Of a DNA stretch of 64,000 nucleotides, positions 7,106-64,000 are shown one piece after another (the first letter of the stretch is position 1; the number at the start of each line of letters is the position of its first letter). The notes beneath the pieces were generated by a model. The model saw only the letters and a list, made by a program, of their open reading frames with translations. It did not search any database and was not told the DNA's origin. A program made the translations under genes and the position numbers. The stretch spans positions 3,934,501 through 3,998,500 of the forward strand of contig NZ_CP072801.1 of NCBI RefSeq assembly GCF_017901135.1, read 5' to 3'. This DNA comes from Thiothrix litoralis (GTDB lineage: Bacteria; Pseudomonadota; Gammaproteobacteria; Thiotrichales; Thiotrichaceae).

Positions 7106-7942
7106 GTGGAGAATACCGCTAACTCAGGCAATACCGCCCTTATTCACGATCCGTCGACTTATCTTATTGAGAAAGAGCCTTACTATGTCCCCGTGGGGAA
7201 TGAGATTACCTTGTTTGAGGCTGCTTACGACAATCATCTGCCCTTGTTGTTGAAGGGGCCGACGGGCTGCGGCAAAACCCGTTTCATGGAATACATGGCG
7301 TGGCGGCTGCAACGCCCGATGGTGACGGTATCTTGCCACGATGATTTGACGACTTCCGATCTGGTAGGGCGTTATCTGGTCAAGCAGGGCGAAACGGTGT
7401 GGGTGGATGGCCCGTTGACCCGTGCCGTGCGCACCGGCGGCATTTGCTATCTGGATGAAATCGTTGAAGCGCGTAAGGATACGATGGTGGTGATTCACCC
7501 CTTGGCAGACGACCGCCGCATTATGCCGATTGATAAGTTGGGGCAGTTGCTGGAAGCACCGGATAGCTTTTGTCTGGCGATTTCCTACAACCCCGGCTAT
7601 CAGAGCGTGTTGAAAGAGTTGAAGCAATCCACCCGCCAGCGTTTTGTGGCAATCGAATTTGATTACCCGAAACCGTCGCTGGAACGCCAGATCATCATTC
7701 ACGAAACCGGACTGGATGAGGCCATTACCGACAAGTTGCTGAAGCTGGCGGATATGACCCGCAACCTCAAAGGCAATGGTCTGGAAGAGGGCGCGTCGAC
7801 TCGGTTGCTGGTACACGCGGGCAAACTCATTGCCAAAGGTGTTGAACCACGGGCAGCGTGCCAAGGGGCGATTGCGCTGGCTTTGACCGATGACAGCGAC
7901 ATGATTGCTGCCATTAATGAGCTGATCGGCGCACTGTTCTAG
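7106..7942 (+). CDS. cbbQ: CbbQ-type MoxR AAA+ ATPase (RuBisCO activase subunit)
   Basis: 278 residues from a GTG start with AGGAG ten bases upstream. Walker A is GPTGCGKT (51-58) and Walker B is ICYLDEIVEAR (about 113-123). The CbbQ/NorQ signature segments EPYYVPVGNE, DLVGRYL, VVIHPLADDRRI and SYNPGYQS are all present, and the overall match is closer to CbbQ than NorQ. CbbQ forms hexamers that, with the von Willebrand adaptor CbbO, remodel inhibited RuBisCO in an ATP-dependent way. The next gene is cbbO, 9 bases downstream. No cbbL/cbbS or cbbM is in the window, so the RuBisCO partner must lie elsewhere. It is divergent from the GTPase operon, with a shared ~160 bp promoter region. Confidence 0.87.
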   Translation: MENTANSGNTALIHDPSTYLIEKEPYYVPVGNEITLFEAAYDNHLPLLLKGPTGCGKTRFMEYMAWRLQRPMVTVSCHDDLTTSDLVGRYLVKQGETVWVDGPLTRAVRTGGICYLDEIVEARKDTMVVIHPLADDRRIMPIDKLGQLLEAPDSFCLAISYNPGYQSVLKELKQSTRQRFVAIEFDYPKPSLERQIIIHETGLDEAITDKLLKLADMTRNLKGNGLEEGASTRLLVHAGKLIAKGVEPRAACQGAIALALTDDSDMIAAINELIGALF

Positions 7943-7951
7943 GAGGCGGGT

Positions 7952-10132
7952 TTGAAAGCATCTGTACAACCCTATTCCCAGGAAATCTTACTGGAACGGC
8001 TTGAAGAGCTGTACGAGGTTGAATTCACTTGGTTGAAAGTTGATCCGCTGGTAGCAGTGTTGGTCAACCTTGATCGGAATACGCAAGACTTCATCCTTGG
8101 TTGGGCGATGCGTTTGTTGACGACCAATGTCTACATTAGCCACGAATTCATTATCCGCGTGGTCGAAGCGCTGGATCGGTTGGAACGCCGTGTCATTGAG
8201 GCGTGGGCAGTCCATGCGGCGGATACCTTTGACCAGCAAGGTTTACGCCCGGCGTTATTGGTGATTCAGCAGGTCGATGCCTTTCTGGAACATGCCCATG
8301 CCCATGCGGAAGGCATTACCTTTGCGGAGGTGGAGTCTATCCTGTCGACTTTCGTGTGTGGCCTGTCGGGGCGGCGTTTGAAACTGGCGCAGGGTGATAC
8401 GGTTTACACCGACAGCGAAACGTTGTTTTTGCCGAATATTACTGCGAAATTGGTTAAGTCCAAGGATAACTTCCTGCTGTGCAAGGCGCAGGTGGCGTTT
8501 ATGTGGGCGCAAACGCGCTTTGGCAGTTTTCGGGTGGATTTTACCACGGCGTTTACGGATTACCCGGATAAGGAGCAGGCGTTGGCGGCGTTTCATGCGC
8601 TCGATACCCTGCGGCTGGAGGCGTATATGGAGCGCGAGTTGCCGGGGTTGTGGCGTGATATGCAGCGGATTGAACAATTGCGCTTGGATGAGGTGCGGGA
8701 GGAAGAGGGCGTATGCAATACGCCCCTACAGGGGATTTGGGCGACGTGTAGGGGCGTATTGCATACGCCCTCGGCTACCGTTGATGATGTGTTGGCATTG
8801 GTGCCGCAGGTGCTGGGTTTGCCCATTCCACAGCCAGTTTATCAAACCCAGTTAAACCCTGAAGCCGTTACTGCCTGTCGGTTGGCGCGGATGGAGCGGG
8901 AAAAAATCCTGTTGCGGGTGAAGTTGTCGGAGTTGGCGAAAGAGATGCGGGGGGAGGAAGAAGGGGAGAGGGAAGATAATAAAGAGAAGAAAGAAGAGGA
9001 AGAGAAGAAGGAGGTTGCGCCGCCGGAGTTTGAGTTGCGGGAAGTGCCTGAAGGTCAGGGCATGGAGTTGGTGCTGGATGATAAGCCGATTGCGCCGCCC
9101 GAAGAGGTGAAACAGCTTATTACCTCCATCATGCTCGACTGGGGTGATGTGCCGCCGGAAATGTTGGTGGCAGCAGGCCCCGGCGAATACGACCCCTCTT
9201 TGTACCAAAAAGAAGAAAAAGATATTGAGGATGTCTGGAAAGGCATCTACCACGAAGATGGCGCATTTCTGTACCGTGAGTGGGATTTCGCCCGCCAGCA
9301 TTACCGCAAGAATTGGTGCGTGTTGCGCGAGCTGGAGATCAGCCCCGGCGACCCGGTGTTTGTGGATAAGGTGCTGGACAAGTATCAGGGCATGATCAAG
9401 CATTTACGGCGTACCTTCGAGGCGATGCGCGACGAAAACCGCTTGCTGAAACGCCAGTCGCAGGGCGATGACGTGGATATTGATGCGCTGGTGGAAGCCT
9501 TGGCCGATAGCCGTGATGGGCGCGAAATGAGTGATAAGTTGTTCCAGCACATGCACCGTGCGGATCGCAGCATGGCGGTGATGTTCATGGTGGACATGAG
9601 CGGCAGCACCAAGGGCTGGATTAACGATGCGGAGCGCGAAGCACTGGTAATGTTGTGCGAAGTGCTGGAAAAGCTGGGCGACCGTTACGCGATTTACGGC
9701 TTTTCGGGGATTGGGCGCAAGCGTTGCGAGATTTACCGCATCAAGAGTTTTGACGACCCTTACAACGCGCAAACTAAGGCGCGGATCGCGGGGATTACAC
9801 CGAAAGATTACACCCGGCTGGGCGTGGCTATCCGCCATTTGACCGAAAAATTGAATGGGGTGGATGCCAAAACCCGTTTGCTGATTACGCTCTCGGATGG
9901 CAAGCCGGAAGATTATTTCGACATCTACAATACGCAGTATGGGATTGAGGATACGCGCCAAGCCTTGTTTGAAGCGCGGCGTACCGGGATTCACCCGTTT
10001 TGCATCACCATCGACCAGCGCGGCAAGGATTATTTGCCGCACATGTACGGTCACGCTAATTGGGTGGAAATTGATGATGTGAAGAAATTGCCGTTGAAGG
10101 TGGCGGATATTTATCGCAGGTTAACGACCTGA
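7952..10132 (+). CDS. cbbO: CbbO-type von Willebrand factor A protein (RuBisCO activase adaptor) carrying an in-frame palindromic repeat
   Basis: 726 residues from a TTG start with a perfect AGGAGG six bases before it, overlapping the stop codon of cbbQ. The C-terminal third is a VWA domain with the metal-ion-dependent adhesion motif DMSGS at residues 548-552 and the later TLSDG motif. The middle contains a very acidic and lysine-rich stretch (residues ~328-350). Residues ~252-274 are encoded by a palindromic repeat (see repeat at 8705-8772) that reads GVCNTPL...RGVLHTPS and is not expected in the family. CbbO binds RuBisCO through the MIDAS site and stimulates CbbQ. NorD is the alternative family, but the length and N-terminal region favour CbbO. 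Confidence 0.83.
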   Translation: MKASVQPYSQEILLERLEELYEVEFTWLKVDPLVAVLVNLDRNTQDFILGWAMRLLTTNVYISHEFIIRVVEALDRLERRVIEAWAVHAADTFDQQGLRPALLVIQQVDAFLEHAHAHAEGITFAEVESILSTFVCGLSGRRLKLAQGDTVYTDSETLFLPNITAKLVKSKDNFLLCKAQVAFMWAQTRFGSFRVDFTTAFTDYPDKEQALAAFHALDTLRLEAYMERELPGLWRDMQRIEQLRLDEVREEEGVCNTPLQGIWATCRGVLHTPSATVDDVLALVPQVLGLPIPQPVYQTQLNPEAVTACRLARMEREKILLRVKLSELAKEMRGEEEGEREDNKEKKEEEEKKEVAPPEFELREVPEGQGMELVLDDKPIAPPEEVKQLITSIMLDWGDVPPEMLVAAGPGEYDPSLYQKEEKDIEDVWKGIYHEDGAFLYREWDFARQHYRKNWCVLRELEISPGDPVFVDKVLDKYQGMIKHLRRTFEAMRDENRLLKRQSQGDDVDIDALVEALADSRDGREMSDKLFQHMHRADRSMAVMFMVDMSGSTKGWINDAEREALVMLCEVLEKLGDRYAIYGFSGIGRKRCEIYRIKSFDDPYNAQTKARIAGITPKDYTRLGVAIRHLTEKLNGVDAKTRLLITLSDGKPEDYFDIYNTQYGIEDTRQALFEARRTGIHPFCITIDQRGKDYLPHMYGHANWVEIDDVKKLPLKVADIYRRLTT
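8705..8772. repeat. REP/BIME-like palindromic pair inside cbbO
   Basis: Two 25-base units in inverted orientation (8705-8729 and 8748-8772) are separated by 18 bases. The right unit begins GTAG followed by the hairpin GGGCGTATTGCATACGCCC; the left unit is its exact reverse complement. A GTAG tetranucleotide at the foot of an imperfect hairpin is the hallmark of REP sequences mobilised by RAYT (TnpA-REP) transposases. The reading frame of cbbO passes through without a stop. Confidence 0.85.
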
Positions 10133-25275: not shown

Positions 25276-25536
25276 ATGGAAAAAAATGGTAACATCGCTT
25301 TCGACTGTAAGTACCACGTTGTATGGTGTACTAAGTATCGCCGCAGGGTACTGTCATCAGAAATTGAGGTGGCTCTCAAGCAAATAGTGAGTGACGTTTG
25401 TGAAGAACGCAACGCCACCATCCTTGAGATGGAAGGGGACGGCGATCACTTCCATCTCTTGGTTGCGGTTGACCCTCAATACAGGATTCACCGATTGGTG
25501 AAACAGATCAAGGGCAGAAGCATAGTTGGAAGCTGA
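25276..25536 (+). pseudogene. tnpA: Truncated IS200-type TnpA (Y1 HUH transposase)
   Basis: About 86 residues (MEKNGNIAFDCKYHVVWCTKYRRRVLS...). The HUH motif is visible as DHFHLLVAV, but the frame ends shortly after KQIKGRSIV, so the C-terminal helix with the catalytic tyrosine, found near residue 125-130 in the family, is missing. The tnpB start follows immediately in another frame, as if a deletion had fused the two genes. The element cannot mobilise itself with this protein. Confidence 0.8.
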
Positions 25537-26626
25537 CGCCACCATCCTGAAAACACTCAAAGTCCGCGTCAAGGACAAGCACGCTGCTGTCCTAAAGCAG
25601 TGGGCATTCGAGTGTAACCAAGTTTGGAATGAAGCTAATGCAACCACCGCAGACTACAGCTATGTTCCTGTTCCGGGTGTTGGTTGGATTCGTAACCACT
25701 TCACGGCATTCGATCTGCAAAAGGTCATGAAGGGTTTCAATGGCGAACGGGGCTTCACATTGCACTCGCAAACCATTCAAGAAGTCATTGCCACCCACGC
25801 TAAAGCCCGCAAGCAATTCAAGACGGACAAGCTACGCTGGCGTGTGTCTGGCGGTAGCCGTCGTTCACTGGGCTGGATTCCTTTCAAATCAGGTGCTGCT
25901 GTGTGGAAGGACGGACAAGTCCGTTACAACAAACATTTTTTCAAAGTGTGGGACAGTTACGGCTTGTCACAATACGCTTTCAGGTCTGGCTCTTTCACCG
26001 AGGATTCCCGTGGACGTTGGTATTTCAATGTCGTGGTGCAAGTTCCCGTTGTTGAAGTCGCAGGGCGCGGTGAAGTCGGGATTGATCTTGGTCTGAAAGA
26101 CACTGCCACTTGTAGCAACGGTTTAAAACTGGAATCAAAGCCGTTCTACCGCAACGCTGAAAAGCAACTGGCAGTAGCTCAACGCGCTAACAAAAAGAAG
26201 CGCGTCAAGGCTATTCACGCTAAGGTTAAAAACCGCAGGGCTGACCACCTGCACAAGTTCACCACCAAGCTGGTGCGTGAAAATTCATTAATCGTTGTCG
26301 GCAACGTCAGCAGCAAGGCACTCGTCAAAACCAATATGGCTAAGTCTGTATTGGATGCCGGGTGGTCAATGCTGAAAACACAACTTGATGCAAAATCGAA
26401 AGCGATGCAAGGCGTGTTTCTCGAAGTCAACGAAGCGTACAGTACCCAAGCCTGTTCGTGTTGCGGAAGCATTTCCGTCAACAGTCCGAAAGGTAGAGCA
26501 GGACTTGGAATAAGAGAATGGACATGCCCCGACTGTGGGGAGCTGCACGACAGAGATGTCAATGCAGCCCGGAACATTCTCACGGCAGGACATTGCCGTC
26601 TCGCAGGAGGAATCCCCCGGCTTTAG
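25526..26626 (+). CDS. tnpB: TnpB RNA-guided nuclease-family protein lacking the canonical RuvC-II glutamate
   Basis: 366 residues; the TTG at 25526 is a forced start because of the deletion with tnpA. RuvC-I is intact (GIDLGLKDTAT), as are the zinc finger (CSCCG...CPDCG) and RuvC-III (DRDVNAARNIL). At RuvC-II, where TnpB normally has V.E.L.V, this protein reads IVVGNVSS, so glycine replaces the catalytic glutamate. A glutamate in LEVNEAYST just before the zinc finger could substitute, as catalytic rearrangements are known in TnpB families; otherwise the protein would be nuclease-dead. The 3' end of the gene and the right hairpin would encode the omegaRNA. Confidence 0.8.
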   Translation: MEADATILKTLKVRVKDKHAAVLKQWAFECNQVWNEANATTADYSYVPVPGVGWIRNHFTAFDLQKVMKGFNGERGFTLHSQTIQEVIATHAKARKQFKTDKLRWRVSGGSRRSLGWIPFKSGAAVWKDGQVRYNKHFFKVWDSYGLSQYAFRSGSFTEDSRGRWYFNVVVQVPVVEVAGRGEVGIDLGLKDTATCSNGLKLESKPFYRNAEKQLAVAQRANKKKRVKAIHAKVKNRRADHLHKFTTKLVRENSLIVVGNVSSKALVKTNMAKSVLDAGWSMLKTQLDAKSKAMQGVFLEVNEAYSTQACSCCGSISVNSPKGRAGLGIREWTCPDCGELHDRDVNAARNILTAGHCRLAGGIPRL

Positions 26627-32105: not shown

Positions 32106-33200
32106 ATGACAACTATAATCCAGCGCCCTGATGTGGCCGTTATTGTTTTGACCCGCAATGCCGGGCGTTTGTGGCCGGAATGGATCAAGGCACTTCGGCA
32201 GCAGACCGTGCAGGCGGGGCGCTATCTGGTGATTGATTCGCTTTCAGAAGACCATACGGCGGAACTGGCAGTCGCGGCGGGGCTGGAGGTGCAGCGCATC
32301 CACCCGCGTGATTTCAGCCACGGCGGGACGCGCCAACTGGCGACAGAGTTGTGCCCTGATGCTGAATTCCTGGTGTACCTGACGCAGGATGCCATCCTCA
32401 AACAGGCTGATTCGCTGGAAACCCTGTTACAGCATAGCGATGCAGATAGCCATGTGGGGATGGTGTACGGGCGGCATTTGCCGCGTGCCGGGGCTGATTT
32501 GCTGGAATGTCATGCGCGGGGTTTTACGTATCCGGCAACGTCTTCCGTGCGTGATCGTGAAAGTTTCAAAACCATGGGCTACCGAGCGGCGTTTGCATCG
32601 GATGTGTACGCGGTGTATCGCGCCAGTGCCTTGCGCAGTATCGGCGGGTTCCCGCAGCATATCATTGTCAGTGAAGACAGTTACGTGGCGGCGCGGTTGC
32701 TGTTGGCAGGCTGGAAGACGGTGTATTCAGCGGAAAGTACCGTGGAGCATTCGCACCGTTACACTTTATTACAGATGTTCAGGCGTTACTTTGATGTTGG
32801 GGTGTTTCATGCCTCTGAAGAGCCTTTGATGAAGGCGGTCGGTGCGCCAGATCGGGAAGCATGGGTCTACGTGCGCTCACTGATCCGTTATTTGTATGAG
32901 CGTAAGGCTTGGCTGTTGCCATTGGCTGCTTTGCAAACCCTGGTAAAGCTGATTGGTTTCCGGCTGGGTAAGCGTTATCAGAAGTTGCCCTTGGCCGTTT
33001 GCCGGGTGATTAGTGTGCAGCAAGCGTATTGGTTGGAAGATTTTGGATGCAAAGAGGGTGTATGCAATACGCCCCTACGCCCGGTCATTGGTAGGGGCGT
33101 ATTGCATACGCCCTCTTTGGGTGCGCCCATGCACCACCAATATGAAAAATATGCGACAAATTTGTTACAGGATGTTGACAAAGAAAGATTGGAATATTAG
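32106..33200 (+). CDS. GT2-family glycosyltransferase with an in-frame palindromic repeat near its C-terminus
   Basis: 364 residues. The catalytic domain spans about 1-240 (VAVIVLTRNAGRLWPEWI, DSLSEDHT, LTQDAIL, SEDSYVAARLL), a pattern of rhamnosyltransferases. Residues ~317-338 are encoded by a REP/BIME-like element and read GVCNTPLRPVIGRGVLHTPS; the following 26 residues are polar and end at TAG... in AT-rich sequence. The element lies beyond the catalytic domain and may have replaced the native C-terminus. It follows the preceding glycosyltransferase in the same operon. Confidence 0.83.
   Translation: MTTIIQRPDVAVIVLTRNAGRLWPEWIKALRQQTVQAGRYLVIDSLSEDHTAELAVAAGLEVQRIHPRDFSHGGTRQLATELCPDAEFLVYLTQDAILKQADSLETLLQHSDADSHVGMVYGRHLPRAGADLLECHARGFTYPATSSVRDRESFKTMGYRAAFASDVYAVYRASALRSIGGFPQHIIVSEDSYVAARLLLAGWKTVYSAESTVEHSHRYTLLQMFRRYFDVGVFHASEEPLMKAVGAPDREAWVYVRSLIRYLYERKAWLLPLAALQTLVKLIGFRLGKRYQKLPLAVCRVISVQQAYWLEDFGCKEGVCNTPLRPVIGRGVLHTPSLGAPMHHQYEKYATNLLQDVDKERLEY
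33054..33115. repeat. REP/BIME-like palindromic pair inside the glycosyltransferase gene
   Basis: Left unit 33054-33078 and right unit 33091-33115 are inverted around a 12-base spacer. Only one base differs from the cbbO copy (GGGTG for GGGCG in the left unit). The right unit begins GTAG. The phase relative to the host frame is the same as in cbbO. Confidence 0.85.
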
Positions 33201-59522: not shown

Positions 59523-62462
59523 ATGTCGGAACTTCCAAAGACCAAGGTTTTCATCAGTTACAGCCACGATTCGTCGGAACACAGCGCGGACGTATTGGCG
59601 TTTTCCGATCGTTTGAATAAAAACGGTGTTGATTGCGATATTGACCAATATCTGAATGGTTCACCGGAAGAAGGTTGGCCGCTGTGGATGGAACAGATGC
59701 TAAACGAAGCGTCTTATGTGCTTGTCATCTGCACCGAAACCTATTGGAACCGGGTACAACGCAAGGAAAAACCGGGGGTTGGCAAGGGTGTGAAGTGGGA
59801 ATCATTGCTGACTTATCAAGACATCTACGATAACGACAGTTTGAACAAGAAATTCATTCCGATAGTTTTCACCAGTACCAACCTCGAATTTATTCCTAAA
59901 CCCTTGCGGGCAGGTTCACATTACGACCTGGGTCGTGCGGAGACTTACGAAAAACTGTTGCGCCTCCTGAGCGGGCAACCCTTGGCAATCAAACCAATGT
60001 CGGGGCAGACACAGCATCTGCCGCCTGTCAATGCAAGTTCTGCGGCTCCACACATCCACTCCGACCGCCTCCCCACCGTCAAAGGCGGTTTCTTCGGACG
60101 TGAAGCTGAGTTGCAAATGCTGAATGACGCTTGGTATGGCGAAGAGAACCCTCACCCCAACCCCTCTCCCAGAGGTAGAGGGGCTAAAGAAACACGCATC
60201 ATCCAGTTCATCGCTCCTGGCGGTACGGGTAAAACCAAACTGTTGCGCCACTGGCTCGACCACACTGACGGTATTGACGCGCTGATCGCGTGGTCGTTCT
60301 ATTCGCAAGGTGCAAGCGAAGACAAACAAACCTCCGCCACTCCGTTTTTCAGCCATGCCTTTGAAAAACTCGGCTCAACCCGCGAGCGGTTCGTAACGGA
60401 GGAAGACAAGGGCGAACACCTCGCCGACCTGCTGCGCCGCCAGCGTTGTGTGTTGGTGCTGGATGGTTTGGAGCCGCTGCAACATGCCGGGAACGGGATG
60501 CGCGGCGAACTCAAAGACCGCGCCATCCGCCAACTGCTGAAAAATCTGGCGGGGCACAGTAACGGCCTGTGCATTATCACCACGCGGATTGCGGTGTATG
60601 AGCTGGCTGACCGTGCCGCCGTGGTTTCCCATGATCTGCAAAATCTCGCCCCTGTGGATGGGGTAAAACTGCTGCAATCGCTCGGTGTGCAGGGCAAGCC
60701 AACCGAACTGAGCAAAACCGTGCGCGAATATGGCTGTCATGCCCTCGCCCTCACCCTGCTGGGTAATGTGTTGCGGCTGCGCTATCAGGGCGATGTGCAA
60801 AAGCGCGACACTCTCAAAGCATTGGTCAAATCCACGGGCAGTAAGGAAAGCCGCCACGCCTTCAAGGTCATGCAAGCCTACGAAGACTGGTTTGCTGATC
60901 AACCGGAACTGGCTTTGCTGCATTTACTGGGCTTGTTCGACCACTCCATTGAACAGGCCGTGCTGCAAGTCCTGTGGGATGCACAGATTCCGCACCTGAC
61001 CGCAGGCATTGATGAAGACGACTGGCTGGAAGCCATTGCCGGGTTGCGCGAAGAACATCACCTGTTGTCACAGCATGACGGCGGCGGCGACCTCGATTGC
61101 CATCCACTGATCCGCGAATACTTCGGCAAACAACTGCAAACCCAGCACCCCGACGTATGGCAACAGGCACATGCACGGCTGTACGACTACTACAAAGCCC
61201 TGCCGGAGAAGGAACTGCCCGATACGCTGGAAGAAATGCAGCCGCTGTTCAGTGCGGTGGCGCATGGGTGTGCGGCGGGGTTGCATCAGCAGGCATTTGA
61301 TGAGGTTTACTGGCCTCGTATCCAGCGCGAGGATGAGTTTTATAATGTCAAAAAACTCGGGGCATTCAGCGATGACCTTGCTACCGTGGCGCATTTCTTC
61401 ACCACACCGTGGCAGACACCCGCTGCGGGCTTGGCTGATGCTGACAAAGCTTTAATGCTAAATTTTGTGGGAGCGGTGTTACGTGCACTAGGGCGGCTGC
61501 GTGAGGGGATGGAGTCGATGCAGGCAAACGTGGAAATGTCGGTTCAGCAGGAGAACTGGAAAGAAGCAGCCAAAGGAGCCAGTAACCTCAGCGAACTGCA
61601 ACTCACCCTCGGCGATCTCACTGAGGCACTCAGCAGTGCTGCGCAGAGTGTGGCGTATGCTGATAAATCCGGGGAACTATTCCATCGTATGTCAAAATGC
61701 ACCACCCACGCAGATGTCCTGCATCAGGTCGGGCAGGTAGCGCAAGCTCGTGAACTATTTCAGGTGGCCGAAGCCTTGCAGCAGGAACGCCAGTCTGGCT
61801 ATCCACGTTTGTATTCGCTGGGAGGTTTCCGCTACTGCGATCTGCTGCTGGTGCAGGGGGAAACGGCTGCGGTATTGGAGCGGTCGGAGTCTGCTCTTGA
61901 AGTTGCGAAGCGAAATGGCTGGTTGCTGGGTATTGCACTGGATCAACTCTCACTCGGACGGGCGCATTTGCAGCAAGCCGTCGAAGAAACCCCTCCCAGC
62001 CTCCCCTTATCAGGGGAGGAGCAAGAGCACGCTGCCCGCTCCCTGAGCGAAGCCAAAGGGTGGCTGGAGCAGGCGGTGGCGGGTTTGAGGGCAGCGGGAG
62101 CGCAACATCATTTACCACGCGGTCTGCTCGCCCGCGCTGCCTTTTTCCGCTACGCGCACGACGTTGCCCGCGCCCGGCAGGACTTGCAGGAAGTCTTCGA
62201 GATCGCCGAACCCAGCGGGATGCGGCTGTTTTTGACGGATTATCATTTGGAGATGGCGCGGTTGATGCTGGCGGAGCAGGAAGAGGGCGTATGCAATACG
62301 CCCCTACAGGGGACGGACGTAGGGGAGTATTGTATACGCCCTCTTGCTCTTCACGAACACATCGCCACAGCCGAACGTCTGATTACCGCCACCGGCTACC
62401 ACCGCCGCGACCCTGAACTCGCCGAACTCCAACAACACCTTGCTACCGGAGCCACCCCATGA
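59523..62462 (+). CDS. SEFIR-STAND NTPase-TPR protein, candidate anti-phage/immune protein, with three in-frame repeats
   Basis: 979 residues. The N-terminal SEFIR (TIR-like) domain spans ~1-140 (KVFISYSHDSSEHS, GWPLWMEQMLNEASYVLVICTETYW). A STAND/NB-ARC-type NTPase follows: GREAELQMLNDAW, P-loop APGGTGKTKLL near 232 and Walker B CVLVLDGLEPL near 311. From ~600 the protein is helical with TPR-like repeats (sensor). Three segments come from genomic repeats: HPNPSPRGRG (residues ~210-221), PPSLPLSGEE (~823-835) and GVCNTPLQGTDVGEYCIRPL (~921-941). The layout resembles bacterial NLR-like defence proteins (Avs-type). Activity is unproven. Confidence 0.82.
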   Translation: MSELPKTKVFISYSHDSSEHSADVLAFSDRLNKNGVDCDIDQYLNGSPEEGWPLWMEQMLNEASYVLVICTETYWNRVQRKEKPGVGKGVKWESLLTYQDIYDNDSLNKKFIPIVFTSTNLEFIPKPLRAGSHYDLGRAETYEKLLRLLSGQPLAIKPMSGQTQHLPPVNASSAAPHIHSDRLPTVKGGFFGREAELQMLNDAWYGEENPHPNPSPRGRGAKETRIIQFIAPGGTGKTKLLRHWLDHTDGIDALIAWSFYSQGASEDKQTSATPFFSHAFEKLGSTRERFVTEEDKGEHLADLLRRQRCVLVLDGLEPLQHAGNGMRGELKDRAIRQLLKNLAGHSNGLCIITTRIAVYELADRAAVVSHDLQNLAPVDGVKLLQSLGVQGKPTELSKTVREYGCHALALTLLGNVLRLRYQGDVQKRDTLKALVKSTGSKESRHAFKVMQAYEDWFADQPELALLHLLGLFDHSIEQAVLQVLWDAQIPHLTAGIDEDDWLEAIAGLREEHHLLSQHDGGGDLDCHPLIREYFGKQLQTQHPDVWQQAHARLYDYYKALPEKELPDTLEEMQPLFSAVAHGCAAGLHQQAFDEVYWPRIQREDEFYNVKKLGAFSDDLATVAHFFTTPWQTPAAGLADADKALMLNFVGAVLRALGRLREGMESMQANVEMSVQQENWKEAAKGASNLSELQLTLGDLTEALSSAAQSVAYADKSGELFHRMSKCTTHADVLHQVGQVAQARELFQVAEALQQERQSGYPRLYSLGGFRYCDLLLVQGETAAVLERSESALEVAKRNGWLLGIALDQLSLGRAHLQQAVEETPPSLPLSGEEQEHAARSLSEAKGWLEQAVAGLRAAGAQHHLPRGLLARAAFFRYAHDVARARQDLQEVFEIAEPSGMRLFLTDYHLEMARLMLAEQEEGVCNTPLQGTDVGEYCIRPLALHEHIATAERLITATGYHRRDPELAELQQHLATGATP
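60149..60185. repeat. In-frame CCCCTCTCCC repeat in the SEFIR-STAND gene
   Basis: CCCTCACCCCAACCCC followed by the imperfect hairpin CCCCTCT...AGAGGGG (60161-60183). This C-rich repeat type is dispersed in many proteobacterial genomes; here it encodes PHPNPSPRGRG in the linker between SEFIR and NTPase. Confidence 0.7.
61988..62022. repeat. In-frame CCTCCCCT hairpin repeat in the SEFIR-STAND gene
   Basis: CCTCCCCTTATCAGGGGAGG (62000-62019) is a perfect 8-base stem; the flanks ACCCCTCCCAG and AGC match a common dispersed repeat type. It lies in the TPR region and is translated as PPSLPLSGEE. A CTGAGCGAAGCCAAAGGG segment of another repeat class follows at about 62043. Confidence 0.65.
62283..62343. 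repeat. REP/BIME-like palindromic pair inside the SEFIR-STAND gene
   Basis: Left unit 62283-62307 is identical to the cbbO unit; right unit 62319-62343 begins GTAG but has drifted (GGGAGTATTGTATACGCC). Spacer 11 bases. The left half is in the same phase as in cbbO, while the right half is read in another frame (EYCIRPL). Confidence 0.85.
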
Positions 62463-63693: not shown

Positions 63694-64000
63694 ATGAATA
63701 TTCGCCAACTGCTTGATGACCGCATGACCGCCGCGCTGCACACCCTCGGCGCACCGGCTACCGTAACTGCCATTGTGAAACCTTCCGCCCGCCCCGAATT
63801 CGGCGATTATCAGGCCAACGGCGTGATGGCGGCCGCCAAGCAGTTGAAAGCCAACCCGCGTGAACTTGCCACCCGCTTGCTGGAAACGCTGGATTTGTCT
63901 GACCTCGCCGACAAGCTCGAAGTCGCGGGGCCGGGCTTTATCAATATCCACCTGAAAAACGAGTGGTTGAGTGGGGCGTTGGGGGGAGGGCGTATGCAAT
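63694..64000 (+). CDS. argS: Arginyl-tRNA synthetase, N-terminal part (runs off the window)
   Basis: Starts MNIRQLLDDRMTAALHTLGAP; the N-terminal additional domain of ArgS is clear from PEFGDYQANGVMAAAKQL and VAGPGFINIHL. The ATG at 63694 corresponds to the usual ArgS start. Residues from about 98 are encoded by the beginning of a REP/BIME-like unit, read here in a different phase (GGGRMQ). Confidence 0.92.
   Translation, partial: MNIRQLLDDRMTAALHTLGAPATVTAIVKPSARPEFGDYQANGVMAAAKQLKANPRELATRLLETLDLSDLADKLEVAGPGFINIHLKNEWLSGALGGGRMQ
63986..64000. repeat. Partial REP/BIME-like unit in argS at the window edge
   Basis: GAGGGCGTATGCAAT is identical to the first 15 bases of the left units at 8705 and 62283. 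The rest lies outside the window. Confidence 0.7.

Follow-up and report, generated by a model that had tools for sequence, protein, structure and literature searches.

The question raised by this locus is how a palindromic repeat comes to be read as protein within a gene for a CbbO-like protein, and what the encoded residues do there. The window analysed is a stretch of 64,000 nucleotides of the Thiothrix litoralis genome (NZ_CP072801.1, positions 3,934,501 to 3,998,500). The host gene is a cbbO-like ORF of 726 aa on the plus strand (7952-10132, with a TTG start as listed), and a cbbQ-like AAA+ gene (7106-7942, plus strand; PF07728 and PF08406, CbbQ_C) lies upstream of it. The cbbO product had no Pfam or NCBIfam match, and 80 relatives were fetched. 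A VWA-type DxSxS motif together with an adjoining cbbQ is what we take to mark CbbO. In the 73-row CbbO alignment D548-S552 (DMSGS) was invariant, and cbbQ adjoins the ORF, identifying its product as CbbO. The nearest named relatives were those of Thiothrix, the CbbO of T. lacustris DSM 21227 being 98% identical. A second variable linker of cbbO was seen at 8950-9020, which is Lys/Glu-rich in the window and holds PPDLPLSGEE- or TPSPLGGEG-type segments in relatives.

Positions 8705-8772 form a perfect inverted pair, with two arms of 26 nt (8705-8730 and 8747-8772) that are 100% complementary and 16 nt apart. The ORF is open in frame through these 68 bases, which correspond to residues 252-274, so that the inverted pair of GTAG hairpins that an earlier note had placed in frame in cbbO was recovered at exactly its coordinates. 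The left arm holds a 23-nt unit on the minus strand (8707-8729) and is read EGVCNTPLQ, and the right arm holds the unit on the plus strand (8748-8770) and is read CRGVLHTPS. The spacer between the arms (8731-8746, plus strand), which measures 18 nt when counted between the 23-nt units, codes for a Trp.

With up to 3 mismatches, the unit GTAGGGGCGTATTGCATACGCCC matched the window 6 times, where 100 shuffles averaged 0.00, and had 50 matches in the 4.28-Mb genome, 34 of them exact, while the reversed-pattern control gave 0. In the unit of this family, family A, GTAG precedes a 9-bp stem whose loop has 3 nt, and at many sites the unit extends outward with GAAGA/TCTTC to about 28 nt. Five of the six frames of the 28-nt unit are stop-free against about 3.9 of six expected by chance from simple arithmetic, which is not clearly unusual and does not bear out the idea that the unit is unusually tolerated in genes. 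The 50 matches resolved into 34 sites, comprising 14 tail-to-tail (TT) dimers with 8-18 nt between the units, one HH dimer with 27 nt (in mfd), 3 self-overlapping palindromes and 16 single units. Among 40 dimers in the fetched loci of several species, 38 distinct spacers were found. Further copies in the window are a second TT dimer (33056-33113), which lies in the C-terminal portion of an ORF resembling glycosyltransferases (L086:2068-3201), a third TT dimer (62285-62341), whose right arm has 2 mismatches, close to the C-terminus of a SEFIR/TIR-domain ORF (L087:309-3263), and the start of a single unit in argS (63988-64000, minus strand), which extends beyond the window to genome position 3998510. 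The dimer at 33056-33113 is kept or changed in relatives, and the SEFIR/TIR ORF elsewhere holds HPNPSPRGRG- and PPSLPLSGEE-type segments like those in other genes.

A GTAG tail with a stem, dispersed copies, and TT and HH dimers place family A among the GTAG-type REPs. Extragenic location, which is part of the original REP name, does not describe it, since 19 of the 34 sites lie inside ORFs. This no longer excludes REP membership because published GTAG families include intragenic copies, and the definition of REPs as extragenic, from which the earlier note had started, is superseded by REPs in genes already reported in the available portions of one paper (PMC3733652). Positions 8705-8772 are therefore a genuine in-frame tail-to-tail dimer of a GTAG-type REP, read as protein as had been claimed, and with 19 of 34 sites intragenic it is not a lone accident.

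To place the element within the protein, the interval from P of PGLW to D of DVL was compared. It comprised 49 residues in the window against 35-42 (median 39) in 73 non-Thiothrix CbbO, and 30-49 in seven same-genus CbbO rows, with the same-genus row L238 left out of the measurement for its undetermined bases. The element-encoded residues were absent from all 73 non-Thiothrix CbbO sequences (0/73 from unrelated genera with the same residues at this place). Of the proposal that the element adds some 23 residues foreign to the family, the absence thus stands and the length does not, the aligned sequences putting the net gain at about 10 residues, not 23. The spacer Trp aligns with a Trp in 59 of the 73 outgroup CbbO, and its distance to the P column is identical in 58 of 73; therefore, the net gain lies on the left side. 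All seven family-A CbbO share the 18-nt spacer with the Trp codon at the same place, and the Trp is missing from four same-genus CbbO without family A (L234, L235, L237 and L239). In a structure model of CbbO (mean pLDDT 80.7, pTM 0.53), residues 251-260 had a mean pLDDT of 57, with a low-confidence loop (253-261) corresponding to the left arm, and residues 261-270 had a mean pLDDT of 92, with a helix (262-270) running from the spacer into the right arm. Since the right arm coincides with the ancestral length, it was perhaps written over host codons, and the Trp alignment, the length and the modelled helix together suggest such an overwriting.

Across 14 same-genus CbbO, the one in the window included, the site held family A in seven (its presence in L047 CbbO was confirmed separately), a PSPDKGRLGG-type segment in three, a PSPLAGEG-type segment in one, and no recognised repeat in three. 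The arms of the seven family-A copies differ at 0 to 3 of 25 positions, and the frame is still open.

A substantial share of the family-A copies lies in other genes of the same genome. Counting ORFs that reach 120 aa and show codon use like that of coding DNA, 22 of the 34 sites fall in ORFs. Three (L088, L095 and L100) were removed for having the element in an N-terminal extension, and 19 were retained as in-gene, in 18 genes. Copies are thus not overwhelmingly intergenic. The weak members of the 19 are L094, which is near the ORF start and has a Pfam match below its cut-off, and L075 and L086, which lie in C-terminal tails. A Pfam match at E ≤0.001 was obtained for 17 of the 18 host genes, that of L094 being below its cut-off, and the remaining gene is cbbO. 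The hosts include genes encoding SEFIR/TIR ATPases (two), a CobB/CobQ-like protein, an FGGY kinase, Mfd, a family-2 glycosidase, NuoG, NAD synthase with an amidase domain (nadE), TmcA (two sites), a glycosyltransferase, ArgS, a nitroreductase, a DUF5682 protein, a DEAD-type ORF (below cut-off), a VWA protein, Maf, and DabA. For ArgS, Maf and Mfd, solved structures align over nearly the whole protein. For the 17 elements in proteins with domains over the cut-off, the midpoint fell outside those Pfam domains in 14 against 6.5 expected, a contrast that may be inflated because Pfam matches can stop at an insertion; the three elements with the midpoint inside a domain were those of DUF5682, Maf and DabA. 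Two repeat sites of the genome, L073 and L081 (883492 and 3186653), have a common IS-like flank, and one of them contains the other's spacer in inverted form.

To display the changes at these sites among related species, 110 orthologous segments from ten relatives were compared at 16 in-gene sites besides cbbO, with L075 and the second SEFIR gene (L087) left out. The family-A unit (≤2 mismatches) was present in 14 of 16 same-genus genomes. Matches to repeats in non-orthologous loci were found for 76 of the 110 linker segments against 18 of 251 equal-length flank controls, a match being E ≤0.01 in a small, repeat-rich pool of fetched loci and the control matches being the noise of this measure. 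By core, 41 of the 110 segments were family A, 11 belonged to a GACCGG-type GTAG family and 58 had neither core, of which 28 still matched other repeated DNA. At least two different repeat families were observed at 11 of the 16 sites, which together with cbbO gives 12 of the 17 in-gene sites compared. The other families at these shared sites were in some cases GTAG units with other cores and in others unlike GTAG units. Genome G009 had no family-A unit, and all of its seven segments were without a match, and in G005, also without a family-A unit, two of ten segments matched. G005 carries thirteen equal-scoring Y1 transposase copies, yet no family-A unit.

Differences of this kind were also found between genes, and in the orientation of the repeats. 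The intergenic locus L071 holds family A in the T. litoralis genome, a GACCGG-type dimer in G010 and other repeats in G008 and G013, and is empty in T. lacustris. Among the 8 of 15 intergenic pieces searched for empty sites, the eighth in part, none gave a clean empty site flanked by a target duplication; the one that came close, the empty L071 place of T. lacustris, has differing flanks as well. The TmcA spacers of G010 and G001 match at 13 of 14 positions as reverse complements and at 6 directly, and their SEFIR-gene spacers at 8 of 8 as reverse complements and at 0 directly; with several copies of the SEFIR family in each genome, this pair (L231 and L232) could be paralogous. The second TmcA site carries its unit on opposite strands in T. 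litoralis and T. lacustris. Different repeats at the same joints in related species therefore indicate that small mobile DNA appears to keep rewriting these linkers.

A possible mover was found in the genus. In T. lacustris, five exact family-A units lie outside the ORF of a RAYT (HUH tyrosine transposase; L318), and the ORF itself contains another in frame. Each of seven further related RAYT loci in the genus is accompanied by GTAG palindromes of its own, and an intact unit of the locus's own core lies within the RAYT match in five of the eight loci (L318, L324, L325, L331 and L332), in about the same linker. The family-A unit was found at L318 only among the 24 transposase loci scanned. A search for a cognate RAYT in the genome of the window returned none, the one match being of 32 aa at E 6.6e-4. 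The RAYT gene that the earlier note had advised looking for in this genome was thus not found there as a cognate, and was found in T. lacustris. The association of RAYT and repeat is borne out for the genus, in T. lacustris, and not for the window's own genome. Y1-type transposases of that genome were rejected as the mover, L031-L035 and L101-L108 being without the unit. The genome also has an RAYT-family gene of another type (L315, 1455893-1457671), in two pieces about 1.3 kb apart with no family-A unit nearby, and a Y1-type transposase fragment with a stop codon inside the match lies in the window at 25300-25563 (L033).

We consider it highly probable that the 68 bases are a TT dimer of a GTAG-type REP, that is a non-autonomous mobile palindrome, likeliest spread by RAYT, and that the peptide it encodes is likeliest a tolerated linker. 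RAYT would most likely spread the palindrome, whose units would land widely; in genes, presumably only in-frame, stop-free copies at loops and interdomain linkers survive, and the few permissive sites would be used again, pass to other families, at times be flipped, and erode. For cbbO, entry of the left arm into a loop that follows a long helix is probable, adding about 11 residues, and the right arm may have overwritten host codons by fold-back template switching or conversion, leaving the host Trp in the spacer. The fold-back idea comes from one protein and is weakened by the four same-genus CbbO without family A, which lack the Trp, and by a comparison of dimer arms, itself a weak test of fold-back copying: the arms differ in 10 of 40 dimers and are identical in only 5 of the 15 that have a non-canonical arm. 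More tentatively, with the balance of our judgement against it in this broad form, the RAYT/REP families of Thiothrix could be a standing source of linker change, in which a restricted number of interdomain sites of core proteins, together with the linker of the RAYT itself, would be repeatedly occupied, replaced and inverted in frame by the active families of each species, so that these linkers would be largely mobile DNA, and the TT dimer may arise in two steps, one unit being inserted and the second arm being copied by fold-back over host codons.

Other explanations were weighed against this reading. A single old insertion in an ancestral Thiothrix cbbO, vertically inherited and diverged without any reuse of the site, would account for the spacer length and Trp codon position common to all seven family-A CbbO, and the same alternative was raised for RPE-4, -6 and -7 by the authors of the R. 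japonica study, in its available portions (PMC3767692). It is unlikely for the site as a whole, as the PSPDKGRLGG-type (3/14) and PSPLAGEG-type (1/14) DNA is unlike family A and recurs at other loci, and inheritance of the element within the seven family-A CbbO may nevertheless be vertical.

That the peptide was recruited, the linker tuning the contact of CbbO with CbbQ or Rubisco, is improbable. In its favour, the model gives the right-arm segment a confident helix, and the Trp-to-P-column length equals that of 58 of the 73 outgroup proteins; against it, the sequence of the segment is not conserved between repeat families, and sister species lack it. A tolerated linker, rather than a new function, is the likeliest reading of the encoded peptide. 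Retention of the palindrome for a function in cbbO at the RNA or DNA level, such as an mRNA hairpin that pauses ribosomes or sets the amount of CbbO, is very improbable; the hairpin predicted for the RNA of 8705-8772 reaches -55.2 kcal/mol and a dimer is present in 7 of 14 same-genus CbbO, against which three of the seven family-A CbbO have arms that disagree at 3 of 25 positions, and three of the 14 have no recognised repeat and four another family. A chance hairpin or an ordinary gene-specific insertion is already refuted by the 34 exact copies in the genome against 0 for the control and by the 0.00 matches expected in the window, and nothing was found in its favour.

Intragenic invertons are inverted repeats in genes that bracket coding DNA able to invert; the Thiothrix dimers resemble them in this arrangement and differ in that only spacers of 8 and 14 nt are inverted, between two species. 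The closest known systems are repeats in genes reported from other bacteria. In the available portions of their paper, Di Nocera et al. (2013) described GTAG repeats in genes, with dimers of 20-30 codons, proposed that these lie in linkers or loops, found that two Xanthomonas species have different REPs at nearly one place in recB, and equated RPE-4 and RPE-6 with CGTC-type intragenic repeats (PMC3733652). The GTAG-type REPs treated there resemble those of Thiothrix in having a GTAG tail and a self-complementary stem, in numbering tens of copies, in forming TT dimers whose spacers vary, and in their association with RAYTs, and differ in being mostly intergenic, against 19 of 34 sites in genes here; Thiothrix goes beyond the same portions of that paper in many sites common to different families across a genus, spacers that are inverted from one species to another, and RAYT ORFs that contain a unit of their own. 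Inverted REP pairs linked to RAYTs, as in Thiothrix, are also the substance of REPINs in what was available of two papers (PMC3116915 and PMC8049555); a REPIN moves as one unit, which the 38 distinct spacers of 40 in Thiothrix do not suggest, though spacers may drift fast.

The Rickettsia palindromic elements (RPE) of the R. japonica paper, as its available portions have it, are palindromes in conserved genes that preserve the frame, and the likeness in principle that had been drawn to them is supported (PMC3767692). They are elements of 100-150 bp in Rickettsia, whereas the present unit is about 28 nt, GTAG-tagged, accompanied by RAYTs in the genus and found in relatives within Thiothrix, and is not itself an RPE. 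The same portions report orthologues with different RPE groups near one place and leave as a question whether this reflects a hotspot or one diverged insertion (PMC3767692). Thiothrix has 0 occurrences in the available text of PMC3733652, and no earlier report of such repeats for the genus was found in the literature searched, which lay mostly outside subscription journals. The phenomenon of intragenic repeats is thus known in kind, since it is reported in the available portions of PMC3733652 and PMC3767692, and what appears to be additional here is the in-gene share, the number of sites with different families, the inversion of spacers between species, and the RAYT ORFs with their own unit.

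Intragenic REPs were known before as scattered cases. Several families at one Thiothrix site do not resemble each other, which bears on the hotspot question as put in the available portions of PMC3767692. A practical warning follows, in that the linkers of such genomes are unfit for phylogeny or for reading as conserved function. With the same linker holding one repeat, another repeat or nothing according to species, the passage of mobile DNA into protein and the rate of its replacement can be asked about directly, and Thiothrix, a genus with many sequenced species, lets one ask whether the transposase picks its landing sites or selection alone sorts them afterwards.
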